Source: Hyphomonadaceae bacterium
GTDB lineage: Bacteria; Pseudomonadota; Alphaproteobacteria; Caulobacterales; Hyphomonadaceae
Length of the DNA: 64,000 nucleotides
Assembly (NCBI GenBank): GCA_030697555.1
Contig: JAUYPV010000161.1
Span: 1 to 64,000, forward strand
Reading direction: 5' to 3'
Shown: piece after piece, positions 24,972 through 37,955 of the stretch
Layout: the number at the start of each line of letters is the position of its first letter
Position numbering within the stretch: position 1 is the stretch's first letter
Notes under the pieces: generated by a model
What the model was told of the DNA's origin: nothing
Databases searched by the model: none
Seen by the model: only the letters and a program-made list of their open reading frames with translations
Position numbers and translations under genes: made by a program

Positions 24972-25916
24972 ATGAAGAAGCTCGTATCGACTATTGCGAT
25001 GGCTGCAGCTTTGGCTGCGTGTCAGTCGCCGACAGGACCGGCTGCGGGCGATCAGACCGCTGCGGCCACGCCAGGCGCTGCTGCGCCGTACAAGGCGCCG
25101 CGCGGACCGGATGGCGCACATCCGGATCTGAACGGCGTGTGGCAGGTTCTGAACACCGCCAACTACAACATCGAGGCGCATCCGGCCCAGGCCGCGCTGC
25201 AGCTTCGTCCTGGCCCGTACGTTCCGGTTCCCGCCGCTGAAGTCGTGGCGCTGGGCGCCGTCGGCGCCGTGCCGGCCGGCATCGGCATCGTCCAGGGCGA
25301 CGGCAAGATCCCCTACAATGCGGACACGGTTGCGATCCGCGACGAGAACCGCGCCAAGGCCGTGGAAAACGACCCGGAAGTGAAGTGCTACCTGCCGGGC
25401 ATTCCGCGCGCCAACTACATGGACAAGCCGTTCCAGATCTTCCACTCGGACAAGGCGGTGTTCTTCGCCTACGAATACGCCGGCGCTGTCCGCAACGTGT
25501 TCCTGGCCGACCCGGGCGAAGCTCCGGTCGATTCGTGGATGGGCCAGTCCTTCGGCAAGTGGGATGGCGACACGTTCGTGATCGAAGTGACGGGCCTTCT
25601 GCCCGACGCCTGGCTCGACCGCTCGGGCAACGTCCACGGCTCCACGACGAAAGTCGTCGAGCGCTGGACGCCGACCTCCGACTACACGATGCGCTACGAA
25701 GCGACGATCACGGACGAAGAGACCTACACCAAGCCGTGGACGATCGCGTTCAACCTCTACAAGCGCACCGGCGAAGACGCGCAGCTGCAGCAGTTCAAGT
25801 GCGTCGAGTTCGTCGAGGAGCTGATGTACGGCCACCTGCGCAAGACCCCGCTGCCGGGGCCTGCAGCCGAGCGCGCCAAACGCGAAGCCGCTGAACGCGC
25901 CAAGGAAGGCAACTAA
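24972..25916 (+). CDS. Secreted protein, divergent member of the 'PDL.GVW' family
   Basis: MKKLVSTIAMAAALAACQ signal; YKAPRGPDGAHPDLNGVW, GKWDGDTFVIEVTG, VVERWTPTSDYTMRYEATITDEETYTKPWT. Confidence 0.8.
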   Translation: MKKLVSTIAMAAALAACQSPTGPAAGDQTAAATPGAAAPYKAPRGPDGAHPDLNGVWQVLNTANYNIEAHPAQAALQLRPGPYVPVPAAEVVALGAVGAVPAGIGIVQGDGKIPYNADTVAIRDENRAKAVENDPEVKCYLPGIPRANYMDKPFQIFHSDKAVFFAYEYAGAVRNVFLADPGEAPVDSWMGQSFGKWDGDTFVIEVTGLLPDAWLDRSGNVHGSTTKVVERWTPTSDYTMRYEATITDEETYTKPWTIAFNLYKRTGEDAQLQQFKCVEFVEELMYGHLRKTPLPGPAAERAKREAAERAKEGN

Positions 25917-25930
25917 CACCGCTAGGCCGC

Positions 25931-25966
25931 TCGGCGCTGACCTGCAGAAATTCCGGTCAGCGCCGA
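25931..25966. terminator. Perfect 12-bp stem hairpin downstream of 24972-25916
   Basis: tcggcgctgacc / ggtcagcgccga, 12-nt loop; no clear T-run. Confidence 0.45.
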
Positions 25967-26244
25967 CGGTCTCGCATGACGCGCTCGTTGAACTAGTTGT
26001 GACTTCGGACCACACGCGCGGTTCCCCGGGTTGGGCGCGCGACCAAAACACGGGCTGAATCTGGGTTCTTGGCGCTGTTAACGGCTTGAACCTGAACAGA
26101 TAAAGACTCAGCCGGTGTGGCAGTTCATCCCTTGAGGCCGGGGAACCCCCGGTTTAAAAGGGTTCAAGTTTCGAAGGGCCGTTCACCGGACCCGCAGCAA
26201 TAAAATCCTGGCGGTTAGCGCCGCCGGCTCAGGAGAGGAAGTAG

Positions 26245-26772
26245 ATGAACAAGACCCGTCTCGTGGTTGCTGGGGTGGCTCTGGCTGCTCTCACGACCCT
26301 CGGCGCCGGAACGGCGGCCTACGCCCACCACGCCTTCGCCGCGGAATTCGACGCTGACGCGCCGGTCCTGCTGAAGGGCAAGGTCGTGACGGTCGAGTGG
26401 GTGAACCCGCACACCTGGATCCACATCAACGTTCCGGACACGGACGGCAAGGGCAAAGAGAAGAAGGGCACGATCTTCAACTGGGCGATCGAGGGCGGCA
26501 CGCCGAACACGCTGCTGCGCACCGGCATCACCCGCAACTCGCTGAAGATCAACACCGAGGTCGTGGTCCGCGGCTACCAGTCGAAAGACGCGTTGTGCGA
26601 CACGCACCCGAAGACCAAGAAGAAAACCTGCAAGGCCAACGGCCGTGATGTGACCTTCCCGAACGGCTGCAAGCTGTTCGTCGGTTCGTCGGGGACCGGC
26701 GCTCCGCGCGACGGTTCGGACGGGTCCGAAGGCGGCAAGGCAGACGCCTGCGCAACCGCCGCTCCGACCTGA
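26245..26772 (+). CDS. DUF6152-like secreted protein
   Basis: YAHHAFAAEFDADAPVLLKGKVVTVEWVNPHTWIHINV. Confidence 0.8.
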   Translation: MNKTRLVVAGVALAALTTLGAGTAAYAHHAFAAEFDADAPVLLKGKVVTVEWVNPHTWIHINVPDTDGKGKEKKGTIFNWAIEGGTPNTLLRTGITRNSLKINTEVVVRGYQSKDALCDTHPKTKKKTCKANGRDVTFPNGCKLFVGSSGTGAPRDGSDGSEGGKADACATAAPT

Positions 26773-26801
26773 TCGGACGGACTGCATACGCAAGATAACG
26801 C

Positions 26802-26829
26802 AACCGCCGCTCGAAAGAGCGGCGGTTTT
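26802..26829 (+). terminator. Rho-independent terminator
   Basis: aaccgccgctc gaaa gagcggcggtt tt. Confidence 0.85.
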
Positions 26830-26942
26830 CGTTTGGGCGCTCCTCGACCCGCTGCGTATCGCCCGATCATCCGCTACCGCCGTCCGCGGGAGGGTGGTAA
26901 CTTTCCCGCGCCCGCCTTGCGGCGCGCGTTGGGGACTTCGCC

Positions 26943-27878
26943 ATGTTTGCGCACTGGACCATCGCTCTGGTTTTCTGCAGCCTGCTTGCGCAGGTCGCGA
27001 CCGCCCAGCAGCAGGTCGTCGATCCGGACTTCAAACCTGCGGTGGCAAGTCCCGCCTATGCCTCCGGCGGACCGGTGGTCGCGATCGACGAGGCGCACCA
27101 GAACTTCCACACCGCGACCGGCAACTACCGCCCGTTTGCCGAGCTCCTGCGCGCCGACGGGTATCGCGTCCGCGCTTCCACGTCGAAACTCTCCGCCGAG
27201 ACCTTCAAGGGCGTCGACATCTTCGTCGTCGTCAACGCGGAAGGGACATTCGCTGGCGCCGAAGCCGACGCGCTACGCGACTGGGTGAAAGCCGGCGGGT
27301 CTCTTCTTCTCACCGCCGACCATGAGCCCTTCGGCGCTGCGATGGAATCGCTTGGCCTCCGTTTCGGCGTCTCGATGGGGAAGGGCCGGGCGTATGACAG
27401 CGAGGTTCCCGGCAGAATCACCACCCAGCTCACCTATTCGCGGGCCAACGGCCTGCTCGGCGAACATCCGATCCTCGAAGGCCGCAATGCCTCGGAGAGA
27501 GTGAACCTCGTCAAGACCTTCACTGGCCAGTCGCTCGGCCTGCCGCAGGGCGCAAGCCCGCTGCTGCGCTTCGGCGCCACGGCGCGCGAGGCTGTGACCG
27601 TCGCCCAGCTCAACCAGGTCGGCGAAGCGATCGCCAGGAACGAGGTCATCGCTGGCGGACCGCCCTCTGTCGCTGGCCGCGTGCAGGGCCTGGCCATGCC
27701 GTTCGGCAAGGGACGCATCGTCGTGCTCGGCGAGGCCGGGATGTTCTCCGCCCAGGCGGTCAAGTTTCCACCCGGCTCGGGCCAGCAGGACTTCAAGTTC
27801 GGAATGAACCTGCCCGGCACGGACGATCGGCAATTCGCCCTCAATGTGCTGCACTGGCTGTCGCGGGTGATAGGCTGA
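26943..27878 (+). CDS. Secreted protein with DUF4350/GATase-like region
   Basis: VVAIDEAHQNFHT...FVVVNAEGTF...WVKAGGSLLLTADHEPFG; overlaps next start (tgatg). Confidence 0.65.
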   Translation: MFAHWTIALVFCSLLAQVATAQQQVVDPDFKPAVASPAYASGGPVVAIDEAHQNFHTATGNYRPFAELLRADGYRVRASTSKLSAETFKGVDIFVVVNAEGTFAGAEADALRDWVKAGGSLLLTADHEPFGAAMESLGLRFGVSMGKGRAYDSEVPGRITTQLTYSRANGLLGEHPILEGRNASERVNLVKTFTGQSLGLPQGASPLLRFGATAREAVTVAQLNQVGEAIARNEVIAGGPPSVAGRVQGLAMPFGKGRIVVLGEAGMFSAQAVKFPPGSGQQDFKFGMNLPGTDDRQFALNVLHWLSRVIG

Positions 27879-28816
27879 TGCCCATGCGAGGCCTCGCTCT
27901 GGCAGCCTGCCTCGCTCTCGCTCAAGCCGCCTATGCGCAGGCGCCCTACCAGCCGCCGCGTGACACTTACGGCCATCCCGACTTTCAGGGCGTGTGGGCC
28001 ACCCGCTGGACCACACCGCTCGAGCGCTCTGCCGAATGGAAGACGCTCGTGCTTACGAAGGAGGAGGGGGCGAAGCTTCACGCCTCGGTGCTGGCGCGCC
28101 TCAGATCCACCGATCCCCTGGGACCAGACTATGCGTGGGACCTTGCCGGTCCGCTGGTGATAGACGGGGAGGCGCGCTCGTCCCTCGTGGTCGATCCCGC
28201 CGATGGCAAGCTGCCGCTCACCGAAGACGGCCGCGCCCGCCGCGCGGTGTTCCGGCCGGTTGCCGGAGACGAAGGACCCGAACAGCGCGGTCTCAACGAA
28301 CGTTGCCTGATGGCAGGCAGCGGCTATGCGCCCTTCCTTTCCATTCCCGCCAGCAATGTGCGCCGGATCGTGCAGACACGCGACACCGCGCTGTTCCACA
28401 CCGAATCATTCAACCAGCTGCGCATCATCCCGCTCGATGGCCGCACCGGCCCTCTGATTCCCCGCGGCGGCTCCTCGTCGGGCCGCTGGGAAGGCGACAC
28501 TCTGGTCGTCGAAACCACCGGCTTCCTCGCTACGGATGGCTTTCGCATTGCGCCGATGCAGGCCTTTCCCATTTCGCCGGCGACGCGGATCACCGAGCGT
28601 TTCACGCGCATCAGCGCCGACGAGATTTCCTATCGCTACACGGTGGAGGACGCCTCCCTCTACACGCGCGCCTGGACGGGCGAGTCCCTGCTCAAGCGCA
28701 CGGACGATCAAATGTTCGAATGGGCCTGCCACGAAGCCAACTACGGCCTCGCCGGCATCCTGCGCGGCGCACGCGTGGTCGAGGCGCGCGCGACAAAAGG
28801 GAAGGGCAAGCCGTGA
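27878..28816 (+). CDS. Secreted 'PDxQGVW' family protein
   Basis: YQPPRDTYGHPDFQGVWATRWTTPLER; GRWEGDTLVVETTGF; FEWACHEANYGLAGILRGAR. Confidence 0.8.
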   Translation: MPMRGLALAACLALAQAAYAQAPYQPPRDTYGHPDFQGVWATRWTTPLERSAEWKTLVLTKEEGAKLHASVLARLRSTDPLGPDYAWDLAGPLVIDGEARSSLVVDPADGKLPLTEDGRARRAVFRPVAGDEGPEQRGLNERCLMAGSGYAPFLSIPASNVRRIVQTRDTALFHTESFNQLRIIPLDGRTGPLIPRGGSSSGRWEGDTLVVETTGFLATDGFRIAPMQAFPISPATRITERFTRISADEISYRYTVEDASLYTRAWTGESLLKRTDDQMFEWACHEANYGLAGILRGARVVEARATKGKGKP

Positions 28817-29742
28817 AGCTGTTCGCCGCTCTCATCGCTCTGGCGCTCAACGCGACGCCTGCACACGCGCAGTCCTATCAGCCACCGCGTACGCCAGATG
28901 GAAGACCCGACCTGCAGGGCGTGTGGATCAGCCGCTGGCTAACGCCGCTGGAACGGCCCGCAAGCGCCAAGGCCCTGCCGATAGCTCCACAGGATATCGA
29001 GGCGCTCGCCAAGGCCGAATGGGCGCGGCACGACGCTATCGATCCGATCGAAGGCACTGACTCGTTCGAGTTTTCGACCTTCGTCGTGATCCGCGGCGAA
29101 ATGCGGTCGTCCGTCATCGTAAATCCGCCGGACGGACGCCTGCCGCTCGTGGCTGGACCCGGCGGGAGGCCGGGTTCGCGTATGCACACTGGCCTCGACG
29201 GTCCGGAGGCGCGGGCGCTCAACGAGCGCTGCCTGTCGCCGGGGAATGGAGCGGCGCCTCACCTCACTGCCCCTTCGGGCAATATCCGGCGCATCGTCCA
29301 GACGCGCGACAATGTCGTTATTCACACCGAACTGCTGAGTCATCTCAGGATCATTCCCGTCGATGGCCGGACGAATTTCGGCGCGCGGCATGAGAGGGAG
29401 TCGGGCCATTGGGAGGGCGATACGCTCGTCGTCGAGACCACCGGCTTTGTCGACCCCATGCGCGGTGTGCGCGGATCGCTCGTCCCGGTTACGCCGAAGA
29501 CGAAGATCATCGAACACTTTACCCGCACAGCGCCGGACGAAATTCTCTACGTCTTCACGGTGGAGGATCCGAAGATCTATACGCAAATCTGGACCGGCGA
29601 GACGATCATGCGCCGTACCGGCGAGCCGATGTTCGAGTTCGCCTGCCATGAAGGCAATTACGGCCTCGCCAACATCCTCTCCGGCGCCCGCGCCGTGGAG
29701 CAGCGCACCGCAAAAGCCTCATCCAAATCAAAGCCAAAATGA
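28813..29742 (+). CDS. Secreted 'PDLQGVW' family protein (GTG start)
   Basis: YQPPRTPDGRPDLQGVWISRWLTPLERP; GHWEGDTLVVETTGF; FEFACHEGNYGLANILSGAR; GTGA overlap. Confidence 0.82.
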   Translation: MKLFAALIALALNATPAHAQSYQPPRTPDGRPDLQGVWISRWLTPLERPASAKALPIAPQDIEALAKAEWARHDAIDPIEGTDSFEFSTFVVIRGEMRSSVIVNPPDGRLPLVAGPGGRPGSRMHTGLDGPEARALNERCLSPGNGAAPHLTAPSGNIRRIVQTRDNVVIHTELLSHLRIIPVDGRTNFGARHERESGHWEGDTLVVETTGFVDPMRGVRGSLVPVTPKTKIIEHFTRTAPDEILYVFTVEDPKIYTQIWTGETIMRRTGEPMFEFACHEGNYGLANILSGARAVEQRTAKASSKSKPK

Positions 29743-29820
29743 GCCCGCCATACGGCCAAGCTGACGCCGCCCGGCGTACATGCTAAGCCCTTGCCATTCC
29801 CCGAAACGGAGGACGCAAAC

Positions 29821-30801
29821 ATGCGCCTTGCTATCGCTGCCCTCGCTCTTCTCCTCGCCGCTCCCGCCTTCGCCCAGGCTCCTGCGCAGCCGCCGTATTC
29901 GCCGCCTCGCCTCGGCGATGGCCGTCCGGACCTCCAGGGCGTCTGGGAAAACCGCTGGCTGACGCCGCTGGAAAAGACCGGCCCGATGTCGGCGCTCACC
30001 GTCACACCCGAACAGGCCGCCGCCATCGTCGGCGTCGCGCGCAGGATGGCCAAGACGATCGGCGACCTCGCCAACGACCCCGAAGCGGGCGATCCCGACG
30101 CGCACGCGCTCACCGTTGTTCGCGGCGAACACCGCACGCGCATGATCGTCACGCCGCCCGAAGGCACGCTGCCCTATACGCCCGAAGGCCTGAAAGCCTT
30201 GCAGGACCACCAGAGGTGGTTCAGCCAGCGCGTCATGGCCGCCAAGGGCGATGGCCCGGAAGACCGCCTCACCTGGGAGCGCTGCCTCGCCGGCATGGGC
30301 CAGGCGCCGCTGCTCTATGGCTGGGGCATTTCCGGGCTGCGCCGCGTCGTGCAGACGAAGGACATGCTGGTCATCCATTCCGAAGCCGGCGGCGAGACTC
30401 GCGTCATCCGCATCGGCGGCAAGCCGCTTCCCGCCGGCATGACGTCATTCATCGGCGACAGCGTCGGCCGTTGGGAGGGCGATACACTGGTCGTCGAGAC
30501 CACCGGCTTCCGTTCGGACGACCAGTTCCGCATGTCGGTCATCGGCCGCTCCATCATGGTCGGCACGAAGTCGAAAGTGGTCGAGCGCTTCACCCGCGCT
30601 GGCGAGAAAGAGCTGAACTACCAGTTCACCGTCGAGGACAAGGCGATCTACGCCAAGCCGTGGCTCGCCGAATACTCGATGGCCGCCACTTCCGCCCCGA
30701 TGTTCGAATTCGCCTGCCACGAGGGGAATTACGGCCTCGCCAACATCCTCTCCGGCCAACGCCAGATCGAACAGCGCGCCGCCGCGAAGGCTGCTCCCTG
30801 A
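29821..30801 (+). CDS. Secreted 'PDLQGVW' family protein
   Basis: YSPPRLGDGRPDLQGVWENRWLTPLEKTG; GRWEGDTLVVETTGF; FEFACHEGNYGLANILSGQR. Confidence 0.82.
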   Translation: MRLAIAALALLLAAPAFAQAPAQPPYSPPRLGDGRPDLQGVWENRWLTPLEKTGPMSALTVTPEQAAAIVGVARRMAKTIGDLANDPEAGDPDAHALTVVRGEHRTRMIVTPPEGTLPYTPEGLKALQDHQRWFSQRVMAAKGDGPEDRLTWERCLAGMGQAPLLYGWGISGLRRVVQTKDMLVIHSEAGGETRVIRIGGKPLPAGMTSFIGDSVGRWEGDTLVVETTGFRSDDQFRMSVIGRSIMVGTKSKVVERFTRAGEKELNYQFTVEDKAIYAKPWLAEYSMAATSAPMFEFACHEGNYGLANILSGQRQIEQRAAAKAAP

Positions 30802-30817
30802 TCTTTCGAGGCACACC

Positions 30818-31555
30818 TCAGCAGGTATAGCCGCCGTCGATAGTGAGCATCGCGCCGGTGATCATCGCCGCCGATGGTCCCGCCAGATAGGCCGCGAGGT
30901 CCGCGATCTCGTCCGTCGTCGCGTGCCGCGGGATGCACATGCCGGCGTGGAGCGGGGCGGCGAACGGGCCGTCCTTGGGGTTCATGTCGGTGTCGACCGG
31001 ACCCGGCTGGATGCAGTTCACGGTGATGCGCCTGCCTCCGAAGTCGCGCGCCAGGCCGCGCGTGAGGCCCTGCATCGCCGCCTTGGTCATGCCGTAGGGC
31101 GTGGCGCCGGGCGCACGGGCCGCGTTCCCAAGGCCGGAGCCGAGAATGATGATCCGCCCGTCCTCGTTCATGCGCCGACCAGCTTCGACGGCTGCGAAAT
31201 AAGCGCCGCGAATGTTGACGTCGATCAGGCGATCAACGGCATCCGCATCGAGCGTCAGCGGATCGCCGATAAGGCCGAGGCCGGCATTGATCACCGCGAC
31301 GTCGAGGGCGCCAAGGCTTGCTATGGCCTGTACCAGTGCCTTGCGGTTGCCGCTGTCCGCATGCACCCCGCGTGCGCCGGTTTCCGCGGCGAGGCGATGA
31401 GCCGGATCGGGCGAGTTTGCGTAGGTGAAGACGACGCTGGCGCCATCTTCGGCGAAGCGGCGAACGATCCCTGCGCCGATGCCACGGCTGCCTCCGACGA
31501 CGAGGGCGGTTCTTGCATGCGGTTGGGCGGGCGATTGGGTCATCTCTATCTCCAT
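30818..31555 (-). CDS. SDR family oxidoreductase
   Basis: ALVVGGSRGIGAGIVRRFAEDG; YGMTKAAMQGLTRGLARD. Confidence 0.9.
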   Translation of the reverse strand: MEIEMTQSPAQPHARTALVVGGSRGIGAGIVRRFAEDGASVVFTYANSPDPAHRLAAETGARGVHADSGNRKALVQAIASLGALDVAVINAGLGLIGDPLTLDADAVDRLIDVNIRGAYFAAVEAGRRMNEDGRIIILGSGLGNAARAPGATPYGMTKAAMQGLTRGLARDFGGRRITVNCIQPGPVDTDMNPKDGPFAAPLHAGMCIPRHATTDEIADLAAYLAGPSAAMITGAMLTIDGGYTC

Positions 31556-31765
31556 CTTGCTGGGATAGACGTAAGGACCCGCCGGTGGCGCAGCGCCGGA
31601 AAACAGTGCGCTGTCTGGAAATCGGCGCTCGCGGCTTCTCTGGAACTTGAACCTCCTTCCGCCGGGGCAGGCGATCCTCGCCCATTGACGCGAAAGACCG
31701 ACAGGCGCCTCATTGCTTGAAACGCCGCGTCAGACGGCGCCCACAGGAAGAGGAACCATCGGGCC

Positions 31766-32788
31766 ATGAAACTCGCTCGCATCGCCGTGTCCGCCGCAGT
31801 GCTGGCCTTTGCCTGCGGCCTCGCCTCCGCGCAGGAAGCCTGGAAGGCCCCGCGCACGTCCGACGGCAGGCCGGATCTCCAGGGCGTCTGGACCAACGCC
31901 AGCCTCACCACGCTGGAGCGTTCGCCGCAGTTCAAGACGCAGGCGATCCCAGCCGACCGCGCCGCCCAGATGGAAACGCAACGGGCCCGGATGATGGTCG
32001 CCTCCAACGCCCGCACCAATCCCAGCGACGGCGCGCCGACCGACGGCAACGCGAATGCCGGCTACAACACGTTCTGGATCGACCCCGGCACACACTATGG
32101 CGTTGTGAAGGGCGAGGTGCGCTCGTCCTGGATCGTCGATCCACCGGATGGCCGCATCCCGTATACAGCGTCGGCCAAGAAGCACTTCGACAATTTCCTC
32201 GCCAAGGTGCGCGGCACGTGGGACGGGCCGGAGATCAGGCCGCAGGGCGAGCGCTGCATCGTCGGCTTCGGATCGACGGGCGGGCCGCCCATGGTCAACG
32301 TGCTCTACAACAACAACTCCCAGTTCGTGCAGACGCCGGGCCATGTCGTCATCACGGCGGAGATGATCCACGACAGCCGCGTCATCCCGATCGGCGAGAA
32401 GCGGCCGGCCAAGGGCTTCGACCAATGGCTCGGCAATTCCGTCGGCTGGTGGGAAGGCGACACGCTCGTCGTCGAGACGCGCAACTTCCACAAGGATATC
32501 CGCGTGCGCCCCAACATGGGCGACAGCTACTACGTTGGCGAGAATGCGACGGTGACCGAACGCTTCACGCGCATCGCCGCTGACGCCATCCACTACGAAT
32601 TCACCGTGGCCGACAAGGACGCGTTCACCCGGCCCTGGCGCGCGGAGATGACCTTCCGCGCCAGCAAGCAGCCGATGTACGAATACGCCTGCCACGAAGG
32701 AAACTACGCACTCCCCGGCATCCTCGCCGGCGCCCGCCGCGACGACAGGGAAGGGCGCAAGACGGCGGCCGTGGGGGACGCGGAGTAA
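31766..32788 (+). CDS. Secreted 'PDLQGVW' family protein
   Basis: WKAPRTSDGRPDLQGVWTNASLTTLERSP; GWWEGDTLVVETRNF; YEYACHEGNYALPGILAGARRDDREGR. Confidence 0.82.
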   Translation: MKLARIAVSAAVLAFACGLASAQEAWKAPRTSDGRPDLQGVWTNASLTTLERSPQFKTQAIPADRAAQMETQRARMMVASNARTNPSDGAPTDGNANAGYNTFWIDPGTHYGVVKGEVRSSWIVDPPDGRIPYTASAKKHFDNFLAKVRGTWDGPEIRPQGERCIVGFGSTGGPPMVNVLYNNNSQFVQTPGHVVITAEMIHDSRVIPIGEKRPAKGFDQWLGNSVGWWEGDTLVVETRNFHKDIRVRPNMGDSYYVGENATVTERFTRIAADAIHYEFTVADKDAFTRPWRAEMTFRASKQPMYEYACHEGNYALPGILAGARRDDREGRKTAAVGDAE

Positions 32789-33003: not shown

Positions 33004-35103
33004 TCAGTGTCGCCGCGCCTCGTGCGCCGGGTCAACGCCTGTGTCGTTGTCCGGAGATTTCATTGCGAGAAGGACGAGTCGCTGGCGTTCGATCGCTGTG
33101 ATCATGTCCTTGATGTGGATTGGTTTTGATAGGTAGTCGGTCATTCCACCGGCAAGGAATTTCTCGCGGTCGCCCTTCATGGCATTGGCGGTCAGGGCAA
33201 TGATCGGAATCCGGCTCTCCGGGCCGTCCAGTCCGCGTATTCGCCGCGTCGCCTCGACGCCGTCCATTTCCGGCATGCTGACGTCCATCAGGACGACGTC
33301 ATAGGAGTTCTTTCGAACAGCAAAGAGCGCGTGCACGCCGTTGTCGACAACGTCCACCACGTGCCCAGCCGCTTCCAGCATGATCCGGATCATCATCTGA
33401 TTCAGCACATGATCCTCGGCAAGCAGGATGCGCATCGGGCTAAAGGGTCCCGTGGGTTCTCCAGGGACGTTCTTGAGATCGATCATTGTCGGCTTCGCCT
33501 CCCGGCACGCGACCGTGAACCAGAAGGTGGAGCCTTCGCCCGGCTTGCTCTCCACGCCCATACTCCCACCCATCATGTCGACGAGGCGCTTACTGATGCT
33601 CAGACCAAGGCCCGTGCCGCCGAAGCGACGATTGGTGGATGAATCCGCCTGGGTGAATGCCTCAAATATGATGGCCTGCTTGTCCTCGGGAATGCCGATG
33701 CCGGTGTCGGAAACTTCAAACAGAAGTTCGGCTACCTCTTCGTCTCGCCTGATCGAACTCACGCTCACGGTCACCCCGCCATGCGACGTGAACTTGATCG
33801 CATTGCTGACCAGATTGAACAGCACCTGGCGAACTCGCATTGGATCGCCGATGACGGCCGCCGGAACGCCCTCGGCGGTTGCAGTTCGAATGTAGAGATC
33901 CTTCTGCTGCGCCGCGGCCAGCCATAGCTCTTCCACGTGCTTCAGCTTGTTTGCGATCTGGAATGGAACGTCTTCCAGATCAATGCGCCCGGCCTCGATC
34001 TTGGCGAGGTCGAGGATGTCATTGAGGATAAGCATCAGCGCATCGCCGGCGCGGAGAATCATGCTGGCATAGTCGGCGTGCGGCTTTGTCAGGTTTGCGT
34101 CGTCGAGCATTTTGGCGAAGCCGAGGATTGCGTTCATCGGTGTGCGGATTTCGTGGCTGACGATTGCCAGGAATTCCGATTTGGCCTGGCTCGCGCTGTC
34201 TGCGGCCTGCCGCGCGGCGCTTGTCTGCTCCGCTAGAGCGGCCATTTTGGTCCGGGCGTCCTCGAGTTCGACGACCCGCTCCTGCAGGTGTCCTTCGCTG
34301 CGACGCAGCGCCTCCTCCGACGTCTTGTTCAGGGTGATGTCGCGCAGCACGCCCACAAAAAGCGGATTGCCGCCGATCATGGTCTCGCCGACGGACAGCT
34401 CCATCGGAAAGGTGGTGCCATTCTTTCGCCTGCCAATGACCTCGCGTCCGATGCCGATGATCTTGCGATCGCGAGTCTCGGTGTAGTTCTGCAGGTACCG
34501 GTCGTGCTCGTCGAAATAGGGCGACGGCATCAACATCTTGACGTTGCGGCCGACAACCTCGTCGAGCGAGAATCCGAACATCTTCTCGCACGCCGGATTG
34601 TACATGCGCACCGTGCCGAGCTTGTCGATGATGATAATGCCATCGACGGCGGTCTCGATCACGGCCCGATGCTGGGCCTCGCTGTCGCGCAGGCCCTGTT
34701 CGAGCCGCGCTCGCGCCGTGAGATCGCGGATGACGCCGACATAGGTACGGTCCTCGCCCTGGTCGATTTCTCCAACGGACAGCTCCATCGGGAAAGTCGT
34801 GCCGTCCTTCCGCTGGCCTACGACCTCGCGGCCGATGCCGATGATCTTGCGCTCGCCTGTGGTCCGATAGTTATGGAGGTAGCCATCATGCTCTTTCTGA
34901 TACGGCTCGGGCATCAGCATCTTCACGTTCTGGCCACTGACCTCCGCAGAGGAGAAGCCGAACAGGGTTTCGCAGGCGGGATTGAAGTCAACGATCCGCC
35001 CGCGAGAGTCGATGGTGATCACGCCATCGACGATCGTATGCATGAGTCCCGTCAGCGCATCCGATTCGTCATCGGAGCGCCGGTCGCGCGACATGCCAGA
35101 CAT
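33004..35103 (-). CDS. Hybrid sensor histidine kinase: two FixL-like PAS domains, HisKA, HATPase, REC
   Basis: PAS1 EHDGYLHNYRTTGERKIIGIGR, PAS2 EHDRYLQNYTETRDRKIIGIGR; VSHEIRTPMNAILGF; GTGLGLSISKRLVDMMGG; VLMDVSMPEMDG. Confidence 0.92.
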   Translation of the reverse strand: MSGMSRDRRSDDESDALTGLMHTIVDGVITIDSRGRIVDFNPACETLFGFSSAEVSGQNVKMLMPEPYQKEHDGYLHNYRTTGERKIIGIGREVVGQRKDGTTFPMELSVGEIDQGEDRTYVGVIRDLTARARLEQGLRDSEAQHRAVIETAVDGIIIIDKLGTVRMYNPACEKMFGFSLDEVVGRNVKMLMPSPYFDEHDRYLQNYTETRDRKIIGIGREVIGRRKNGTTFPMELSVGETMIGGNPLFVGVLRDITLNKTSEEALRRSEGHLQERVVELEDARTKMAALAEQTSAARQAADSASQAKSEFLAIVSHEIRTPMNAILGFAKMLDDANLTKPHADYASMILRAGDALMLILNDILDLAKIEAGRIDLEDVPFQIANKLKHVEELWLAAAQQKDLYIRTATAEGVPAAVIGDPMRVRQVLFNLVSNAIKFTSHGGVTVSVSSIRRDEEVAELLFEVSDTGIGIPEDKQAIIFEAFTQADSSTNRRFGGTGLGLSISKRLVDMMGGSMGVESKPGEGSTFWFTVACREAKPTMIDLKNVPGEPTGPFSPMRILLAEDHVLNQMMIRIMLEAAGHVVDVVDNGVHALFAVRKNSYDVVLMDVSMPEMDGVEATRRIRGLDGPESRIPIIALTANAMKGDREKFLAGGMTDYLSKPIHIKDMITAIERQRLVLLAMKSPDNDTGVDPAHEARRH

Positions 35104-35277
35104 GGGTGGCGCCCCCCGGCGCCAATGACAGCGAATCGCCCTGAAATCAGTTCGATTTTCTGGTCGTCGTTATCTGCTAGCAGCAAACGAGCCGGAAGTC
35201 GAGGAAGGTGTGCGGTACCGTACAAACTGGCATCATCCGGCTGACATCGTTGCGCTTTTCAGCAGGCCAGACGCGAC

Positions 35278-35370
35278 ATACGCCTGTCACGAAGGCAACT
35301 ACACACTCCCCGGCATCCTCGCCGGCGCCCGCCGCGACGACCGCGAAGGCCGCACCACACAGGCGGTGGG
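35278..35370 (+). pseudogene. Remnant of the C-terminus of a 'PDLQGVW' family gene
   Basis: YACHEGNYTLPGILAGARRDDREGRTTQAV with unrelated sequence upstream. Confidence 0.8.
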
Positions 35371-35546: not shown

Positions 35547-36377
35547 CTACGAAGCGAACCCGATCCAGCGGCCGCCGGCGGCGACCGTGACCCAGGTGAG
35601 GATCGAGAACAGGGCGATCATCCTTGCCAGCGGCGTCGCCGCATCGGCCTTGCCCTTGTACAGCTCGTACCCGAACAGGCCGATCATGATCAGCGTCGCC
35701 GCGACCATGACGTAGCGCGAGACCTCGTCGAACACCGGCTCGTAGGTGTTGAACCCCACGATCCAGTACATGATGAACTGTCCGCCGAAGAGCAGCGTGA
35801 ACGCTGCCGCCGCAATCCAGCGTGTGCGAACGCCGAAGATCACAAGAATCGCGTAGGCCGCTGCGAGCGGGTGGAACAAGCCAGGCGCCGAGATCTGGTC
35901 CATCGAGAAAGTCCCCAGCGCGAAGGCCCAGACCAGGAACGCTATGCTGCCGGTGATGATGATCGGCATCGACACCTTGCCCTCTGCCTTCGCCACGGCG
36001 TTGGTGACGCCGAAGGAGAAGATGCAGGCCGCGATCAGCGACATGATCTTCACGAAGAACGGCACGGACTTGTAGAGCTTGTCCGAGTTCAGCATGCCGA
36101 TGATGATGCCGGTGCCGAGAACGATGCAAAGGCCGATGATGAACCAGGGCCGCAGGTTTCGCTCCAGCGTCGAGGGTTGTTCCTCCGTCAGGCCCGCGCC
36201 CATCAGGCGAAGGTTGAGCAGGATCACCGCGCCGCCCATGAGTGCGAGGCCGACAAGGTGCAGCGCGCCGAATGGCGCATAGACGTCCTGCAGCAGGGAG
36301 ATCGGCCAGACCTTTGGCATGTTGGTGACGAAGTCGGCCGCGCCGGGGATGCCTTTGAAAAGATCTTCGAAGGTCAT
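35547..36377 (-). CDS. Multi-pass membrane protein, DUF6644-like
   Basis: HLVGLALMGGAVILLNLRLMGAGL; related in layout to 36381-37331. Confidence 0.7.
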   Translation of the reverse strand: MTFEDLFKGIPGAADFVTNMPKVWPISLLQDVYAPFGALHLVGLALMGGAVILLNLRLMGAGLTEEQPSTLERNLRPWFIIGLCIVLGTGIIIGMLNSDKLYKSVPFFVKIMSLIAACIFSFGVTNAVAKAEGKVSMPIIITGSIAFLVWAFALGTFSMDQISAPGLFHPLAAAYAILVIFGVRTRWIAAAAFTLLFGGQFIMYWIVGFNTYEPVFDEVSRYVMVAATLIMIGLFGYELYKGKADAATPLARMIALFSILTWVTVAAGGRWIGFAS

Positions 36378-36380
36378 GGC

Positions 36381-37331
36381 TTAATTCCCCTGACCAGGAG
36401 CGGGTTGCACAGGTGCGGGTTCGGCGGGCGCTTCGCCCTCCGGCGCCGCGGGATCGGTCGTACTCTCCTCCTCGGAAGGCGCAGCATCTTCCGCCGGCGG
36501 CGCCTCCTCGCTGGTCCCTGTTCCGCCATCGCTGACGTCGACGTCTTCGAGATAGGACATGGCCTGCTTGCACTCCTCCAGGACGTACATGAGGGAGCCC
36601 TTCTCGACCTTCTCGCAGAAGAACCAGTCGTAGGCGATGAAGCGGCCGAAGACGATGACCAGGAACCAGCAGGTCATCGAGATAGCGCCGGACAGTTTCA
36701 CCTTCAGCGGCGGGTAGGGCGCCCGGACGTGAAGCAGCCAGACCAGGGCGGACACCAGCGCCAGAGTCGAGAGCGTCAGCAGGAGCACGAGCACGGCGTC
36801 GAATACCGGATGCAGGGCGATAGAGGCCACTGGCAGGGCGAGCGCCAGCACAAGGGCGGCGAACGGCCCGGCCGCTTTCGACCAGGGCGACTTTTCCGGC
36901 GCCGCGTCAGGCGCAGCGTCCCATTCCGCCTGGCTCTTCTGCACCGTGTAGTGGAACCAGAAGATGTTGATTGCGGCGAGGATCAGGAACACCATTTTCA
37001 GGCGGAACCAGATGTTGTGGTAGTACAGCATCGGGTCGCGGCCGACGAAGGTGATGAGGCCCGTTAGCACCATTGCGCCGAAGGCGATCATGGTGATCGG
37101 CAGCACGCGGTCGTTCAGCTTCGAGAACGGCATGTTCTTGAAGGCCATGCCCATCATACGCAGGTCGATCAGCCAGATCGTCCCGGCGAAGAACATGATC
37201 GTCAGCACGTGCGTGCCTTCGACGACGTTCCACATGAAGAGCGACTCGTGCATCTGGTGCGACCAGGACTGACCTTCCGGGCCGAACCGGCCGAGGTCCT
37301 CTTGCAGCCAGTTTATGAAATCGTGAAACAA
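36381..37331 (-). CDS. Multi-pass membrane protein, DUF6644-like, acidic Pro-rich C-terminus
   Basis: GTHVLTIMFFAGTIWLIDLRMMGMAF; hydrophobic segments; tail with repeated EAP/PAP. Confidence 0.7.
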   Translation of the reverse strand: MFHDFINWLQEDLGRFGPEGQSWSHQMHESLFMWNVVEGTHVLTIMFFAGTIWLIDLRMMGMAFKNMPFSKLNDRVLPITMIAFGAMVLTGLITFVGRDPMLYYHNIWFRLKMVFLILAAINIFWFHYTVQKSQAEWDAAPDAAPEKSPWSKAAGPFAALVLALALPVASIALHPVFDAVLVLLLTLSTLALVSALVWLLHVRAPYPPLKVKLSGAISMTCWFLVIVFGRFIAYDWFFCEKVEKGSLMYVLEECKQAMSYLEDVDVSDGGTGTSEEAPPAEDAAPSEEESTTDPAAPEGEAPAEPAPVQPAPGQGN

Positions 37332-37466: not shown

Positions 37467-37955
37467 CTAGTCGTTGCCGATCACGTAGTGGCTATGGCAC
37501 TTCGTGCACGCCTCGTAGATTTTTCCGCCGGCGTCAAAAAACCTTTCCTTGTCGCGCGCTTCGGCCGCCGCAAACGCCTCCATGCCGGCGTCGTACATCA
37601 TATGCGCGGCTTCGACCCAGCGCGGATCGTCGTCGACAGGCCGTCCGGGCAGCAGCAGCAGGTTGGCGGCTTCCGCGATCGTGATCCCGGCATTGGTGGC
37701 GTAGCGCCAGCCGGCGTCGTCGGTCGGGAACAGTTCGTGGGTGCCTTCGGCGTCGATCAGCCAGCCCTGCGCCAGCCAGACGCCGTCGGCGGCGTTGTCG
37801 ATGACGTGCCCCATGAGCTCCTTCATGGCGACGTCGGTCTTGTACTGGCCCTTGTCTGCGGCGGCGGGGTTCGTGGAGGCGGGCGCGTCAGCTTTCTGGC
37901 CGCAGCCGGCCACAAGCAGAGCCACGGCGGCAAGGCCCGCGGAAATGCGGATCAT
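37467..37955 (-). CDS. Lipoprotein with C-terminal heme c motif (cytochrome c'-like)
   Basis: Signal MIRISAGLAAVALLVAGC; C-terminal YEACTKCHSHYV. Confidence 0.75.
   Translation of the reverse strand: MIRISAGLAAVALLVAGCGQKADAPASTNPAAADKGQYKTDVAMKELMGHVIDNAADGVWLAQGWLIDAEGTHELFPTDDAGWRYATNAGITIAEAANLLLLPGRPVDDDPRWVEAAHMMYDAGMEAFAAAEARDKERFFDAGGKIYEACTKCHSHYVIGND

Follow-up and report, generated by a model that had tools for sequence, protein, structure and literature searches.

Genes at the locus

The window analysed here is the whole stretch of 64,000 nucleotides from a Hyphomonadaceae bacterium (contig JAUYPV010000161.1). Between its positions 24972 and 32788, on the plus strand, there are five homologous genes for secreted proteins. 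They belong to a large unnamed secreted family with two subtypes, labelled A (the ACHEGNY-type subtype, after its motif) and o (the short lipoprotein subtype). The family is genetically tied to a module consisting of a DUF6152 protein (labelled D), DUF6644 membrane proteins and a lipoprotein with a CxxCH motif. The relatedness of the five genes had been proposed in a preliminary description of the stretch and is borne out by a five-way alignment, which yields 36 invariant columns.

The first gene (24972..25916, +) encodes the member of subtype o, a short protein that is predicted to be a lipoprotein with a LAAC lipobox and that has two invariant cysteines and no ACHEGNY. It is followed by the gene of the DUF6152 protein (26245..26772, +; PF19649, E=1.2e-28), the signal peptide of which ends in AYA and is followed by HHAF. 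Next is a gene for a secreted DUF4350-like protein (26943..27878, +; PF14258, E=1.4e-11), which is not a family member and for which membership of the conserved module is not established. The four A-type genes are situated at 27878..28816 (with ACHEANY), 28813..29742 and 29821..30801 (both with ACHEGNY) and 31766..32788 (with the majority-type YNNN motif), all on the plus strand; the 29821..30801 product was the protein taken for the structure model. The run of A genes is broken up by a gene for a short-chain dehydrogenase, which lies on the minus strand (30818-31555). Two overlapping pairs of neighbours had been reported earlier, and both overlaps are present, by 1 nt for 26943/27878 and by 4 nt for 27878/28813, although the first pair involves the DUF4350-like gene and is thus not a pair within the family.

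The gene set reaches past 24972-32788. It further includes the remnant of an A-type gene (35189..35368, +), namely YACHEGNYTLPGILAGARRDDREGR, which nearly matches the C-terminal residues of the 31766 product and belongs to no intact gene. A membrane protein with two DUF6644 matches (35547..36377, −; PF20349, E=4.2e-18) is paired with a second membrane protein (36381..37253, −), whose weak DUF6644/DUF2214 match falls below the curated cut-offs. The product of the last gene of the set (37467..37955, −) is predicted to be a lipoprotein; it carries CTKCH, a haem-binding motif, at its C-terminus and has a weak likeness to cytochrome c'. A PAS-PAS hybrid histidine kinase gene (33004-35103, −) is located between the intact 31766 gene and the A remnant, and the layout around it looks as if a duplicated A gene had been split or lost there.

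Two subtypes of one family

A secretion or lipoprotein signal is predicted on every family member in the window. The 24972 protein differs from the A proteins in a spacer that is longer by one residue (APRGPDGAHPDLNGVW); it carries WDGDTFVIEVTG, has KCVEFVEELMYG at the position of ACHEGNY and shows a lipobox (LAAC) where the A proteins have a type-I signal. The earlier statement that four of the proteins share ACHEGNY is exact for three of them, as the 27878 protein has ACHEANY, and the 24972 protein falls into the separate subtype. The 31766 protein carries VETRNF. The homology of A and o is established by profile-profile comparison (probability 100%, E 3.9e-49). Identity among A paralogues is only about 35%; orthologues of o are 57-89% identical.

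Scans of Pfam and NCBIfam with 102 A-type and 36 short-type members gave no credible match for any of the 138, and no solute-binding family of Pfam was matched by the A-type members. A sequence search of the PDB returned no protein related to the family, and none of the plasmid records searched contained a match to it. In the literature search, neither DUF6152, DUF6644 nor the family motif was found mentioned; for the two DUF names, the search covered 5.39 million papers. As far as these comparisons reach, the family is unnamed in current libraries, and the preliminary description was right that no known enzyme family explains the proteins, the searches of Pfam, NCBIfam and PDB sequences being empty.

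Size, distribution and age of the family

A profile built from the four A proteins gave 50 matches at E <= 4.3e-5 in the window's genome, with 7e-165 for the best of them, and chance is thereby excluded. After split matches were merged and remnants left out, this 5 Mb genome holds about 45 genes of either subtype, of which about 40 are A-type. Each of the 15 genomes of the genus has between 19 and 49 family matches, and of 26 further genomes from elsewhere in the family and order, 4 have matches too. Class-wide sampling gave matches in only 4/219 genera. A scan of the collection revealed at least 571 relatives, distributed over Acidobacteriota, Alpha- and Gammaproteobacteria and Gemmatimonadota. 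One acidobacterial genome of 6.8 Mb has at least 156 family matches, mostly short-type or partial, with 150 of its 297 candidates scored.

In a quick tree, the copies from the window's genome are interleaved with those of other genera and at least nine label changes are forced, so the paralogues are old. Recent tandem duplication as the source of the expansion was rejected on account of this interleaving. A record titled as a Klebsiella pneumoniae metagenome-assembled genome (MAG) also carries the family (L056); it groups with environmental relatives in the tree, and its title is probably wrong.

Conserved module and co-occurrence

A cassette on one strand, with o followed by at least one A gene and then DUF6152, recurs in related loci. 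It was found in Acidobacteriota (L032, L033, L034, L045, L050, L057, L084), in Gammaproteobacteria (L041), in Gemmatimonadota (L096) and, among the Alphaproteobacteria, in Ponticaulis (L077), where it includes five A genes. The window and loci L057, L084, L096 and L077 have, facing the cassette, two DUF6644-type membrane genes and a gene whose product, a lipoprotein or a secreted protein, carries a C-terminal CxxCH. L036, L041, L053 and L077 have a HupE/UreJ-type membrane gene as well. Such partners occur in 9 of 18 loci with o, as against 4 of 73 loci that have A but not o (Fisher p 3e-5). When loci were fetched by DUF6152, a family gene was found on the same strand within 400 bp in 26 of 30; of the four exceptions, three concern low-scoring variants of DUF6152. 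The 30 loci come from genomes known to hold the family, and the count therefore measures linkage and not occurrence. The neighbourhood that the preliminary description had suggested is conserved across phyla as regards DUF6152 and DUF6644, while the PQQ dehydrogenases also named there are only occasional (2/84 adjacent genes).

Some other arrangements were also observed. In the window's own genome, a variant second cassette (contig C47, 2318-8279; L112) has DUF6152 and a short-type gene twice, a CxxCH-type gene and two DUF6644 genes, and on contig C6 (L111) two DUF6152 genes are situated between two divergent short-type genes. The 6.5 Mb genome of a Bryobacterales MAG (G327), the source of locus L032, gives 57 matches to DUF6152; judged by these matches, the DUF6152 family is expanded in Acidobacteriota as well.

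Among 41 relatives, A, DUF6152 and DUF6644 are all present in the same 19 and all absent from the other 22; at the level of genera, all three occur in the same 5 of 20. Subtype o was found in 17 of the 19 A-positive relatives, the two misses being genomes of 73% and 77% completeness, and it is single-copy in 16 of those 17. The constant co-occurrence of A and DUF6152 holds among these relatives but fails class-wide: of 289 alphaproteobacterial genomes, 44 have DUF6152 (mostly a low-scoring variant), 24 have DUF6644 and 23 have both, and DUF6152 occurs without A in about 40, around half of which have it beside DUF6644. In A-free genomes with DUF6644, the two genes are 97-353 bp apart in 19 of 20 cases. 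The low-scoring DUF6152 variant adjoins DUF6644 in many Alphaproteobacteria that lack the family (G177, G188, G193 and 16 others). As DUF6152 and DUF6644 are found together in A-free genomes, it looks as though they form the older pair, to which the secreted family was added in some lineages and then multiplied.

It could be argued that the proteins are structural or stress-related components of the envelope, for example lipid-binding ones, and do not form a system for nutrients or substrates, the copies being conditionally expressed variants. The secretion or lipoprotein signals on all members in the window would suit such a role, and so would the dispersed copies of A, which adjoin unrelated housekeeping genes. 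However, the perfect co-occurrence of A, DUF6152 and DUF6644 among the relatives, along with the linkage to the CxxCH lipoprotein, points to a dedicated redox or metal module, and this explanation is considered improbable.

The two cysteines

Counted from the PPR motif onward, C135 (of ERC) and C279 (of ACHEGNY) are invariant in 102/102 A members, and 99 of the 102 have no further cysteine. Within ACHEGNY, H280 is kept in 100/102 and E281 in 102/102. The short subtype has both cysteines in 36/36 members, but the His of ACHEGNY is absent from it. In the preliminary description, the Cys-His of this motif, together with acidic and aromatic motifs, had been taken to suggest a metal or cofactor site. 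The near-complete conservation of the Cys, His and Glu would favour that idea, yet it does not hold up well against the two-cysteine signature. Since there are exactly two invariant cysteines in 99/102 members and both are kept in the His-less short subtype, a structural disulfide between the ERC and ACHEGNY motifs, C135-C279, is the simplest reading for a periplasmic protein. Such a disulfide appears likelier than a metal site, which is rated as very unlikely at this position. Some role for the nearly invariant H280 in subtype A is possible.

The partner proteins

DUF6152 and DUF6644 are both families of unknown function. The partner genes are members of them (PF19649 and PF20349) by the curated cut-off, except for one of the window's two DUF6644-type genes. 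In nearly all DUF6152 proteins, an AxA-type signal-peptidase site is followed by HH, so that a mature His-His N-terminus is predicted. H1, H2 and H29 (of NPH) are invariant in 60/60 aligned sequences; HH had been required in picking these sequences, though only 2 of 77 hits lacked it, a truncated one and one that seems to be out of frame. The predicted structure (pLDDT 82.6) is an OB fold, with matches to PriB, SSB and potempin A.

It has been described that the copper histidine brace consists of an N-terminal histidine plus a second histidine (PMC10952591). DUF6152 has the corresponding features, namely the predicted mature N-terminal His and another conserved His, H29, and it is a better candidate for a metal site than ACHEGNY. 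Similarly, in CopC/CopD-type copper uptake, as in the ycn operon of Bacillus, such a protein is paired with a membrane protein (PMC12362106). DUF6152 and DUF6644 are comparable in that a multi-pass membrane protein with conserved His is encoded beside a small secreted protein that has an invariant His in addition to the predicted N-terminal one. The resemblance is one of layout only. The identity of DUF6152 with CopC was rejected, its predicted fold being OB and not that of CopC; likewise, DUF6644 was rejected as CopD or HemJ, with no CopD match, UPF0093 at E=0.19 and DUF2214 at best at E=3.7e-4, below the cut-off. The CxxCH lipoprotein has its CxxCH at the C-terminus, and its match to the cytochrome c' family PF01322 (E=0.0041) is below the cut-off.

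Predicted fold

The mature 29821 protein was modelled by AlphaFold from an alignment of 102 sequences, and fold matches were obtained by Foldseek. The model (pLDDT 88.1, pTM 0.86) is built of some ten main beta-strands and has a helix at the C-terminus; an inserted segment in its N-terminal part contains helices as well. Its top 32 PDB fold matches are all fatty acid-binding proteins (FABP), CRABP or myelin P2, mostly at a probability of 0.96-1.00. A G-x-W sequence on the first strand is a calycin signature. The family has G-x-W at residues 20-22, on the first predicted strand, with G in 102/102 and W in 98/102 members. On this model, a beta-barrel of calycin type (FABP/lipocalin-like), into which an N-terminal segment is inserted, is likely but not proven. 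The likeness to calycins consists of the predicted antiparallel barrel, the first-strand G-x-W and the best fold matches in the PDB. The A proteins are about twice the length of calycins, from which they are also set apart by the invariant pair of cysteines, the ACHEGNY tail, the C-terminal helix and a long insertion in the N-terminal part. Nor did searches of Pfam, NCBIfam and PDB sequences give a sequence-profile link to any known calycin family.

Possible role of the family

The reading that is tentatively preferred, with somewhat less than even confidence, takes A and o to be periplasmic barrels that bind ligands and serve a metal or redox core of DUF6152, DUF6644 and cytochrome. The A copies would be periplasmic binders, each specialised for its own small and probably hydrophobic compound, and the conserved parts of the barrels might serve for docking to shared partners. 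By means of its predicted mature His-His and the invariant histidine of NPH, DUF6152 would bind a metal, for which copper is the likeliest candidate. It may form a core for electron or metal transfer with two further components, the pair of DUF6644 membrane proteins and the lipoprotein with CxxCH. The barrels would increase in number and the core be kept at one to a few copies, as is the case with orphan solute-binding proteins.

Such a pattern is known from the TTT/Bug family of orphan solute-binding proteins, of which Rhodoplanes has 434 TTT-type genes (PMC5994714), and the Bugs of Bordetella are also expanded orphan periplasmic solute-binding proteins (PMC11452294). Like the A family, they have, in each genome, tens to hundreds of dispersed secreted paralogues and few copies of the membrane partners. 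Unlike them, the A family has another predicted fold and other partners, and its module contains no known transporter. The comparison shows how a family of binders may multiply while its membrane partners do not.

Several observations weigh against ligand-binding barrels. The fold matches are partial, with a best E of 2.7e-3, a TM of about 0.5 to the target and some 125 of 306 residues aligned, and with a pLDDT of about 58-76 the ACHEGNY segment ranks among the most poorly modelled stretches. In the window's genome, most A copies are lone, dispersed and far from the module; an arrangement of all A copies in operons with their partners was rejected for this reason. Moreover, R85, E168, R174, D201, E235, D253, E276 and E281 are near-invariant across all A paralogues in the 102-member alignment, a pattern that may point to an enzyme and not to a variable binder.

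The main rival is indeed that A and o are periplasmic enzymes built on a calycin-like barrel, with an active site of acidic, Arg and His residues and a different substrate for each copy, the core providing redox power or metal. Charged residues that are near-invariant among paralogues of about 35% identity speak for it, as do H280 in 100/102 members and the hydrolase, tannase, PQQ and TonB genes found next to A copies. On the other hand, the proteins show no sequence likeness to a known enzyme family, H280 is absent from the short subtype and the nearest folds are binding proteins. Enzymes are held to be rather unlikely, and binding barrels are kept as the preferred, if tentative, explanation.

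In its widest form, the proposal is of a so far undescribed envelope system, in which a DUF6152 copper protein, the DUF6644 pair and a c-type cytochrome would act as a shared redox core. Interchangeable secreted calycin subunits, tens to more than a hundred of them, would serve this core, each selecting its own substrate, and the system would extend over Acidobacteriota, Gemmatimonadota and several Pseudomonadota. This larger picture is speculative and is regarded as doubtful. The link of the family to DUF6152, DUF6644 and the CxxCH lipoprotein turns separate families of unknown function into one testable module, and the predicted His-His N-terminus of DUF6152 offers a concrete entry point, namely possible metal binding. 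Acidobacteriota are dominant soil bacteria, and large uncharacterised gene families such as this one restrict what can be inferred about their physiology.

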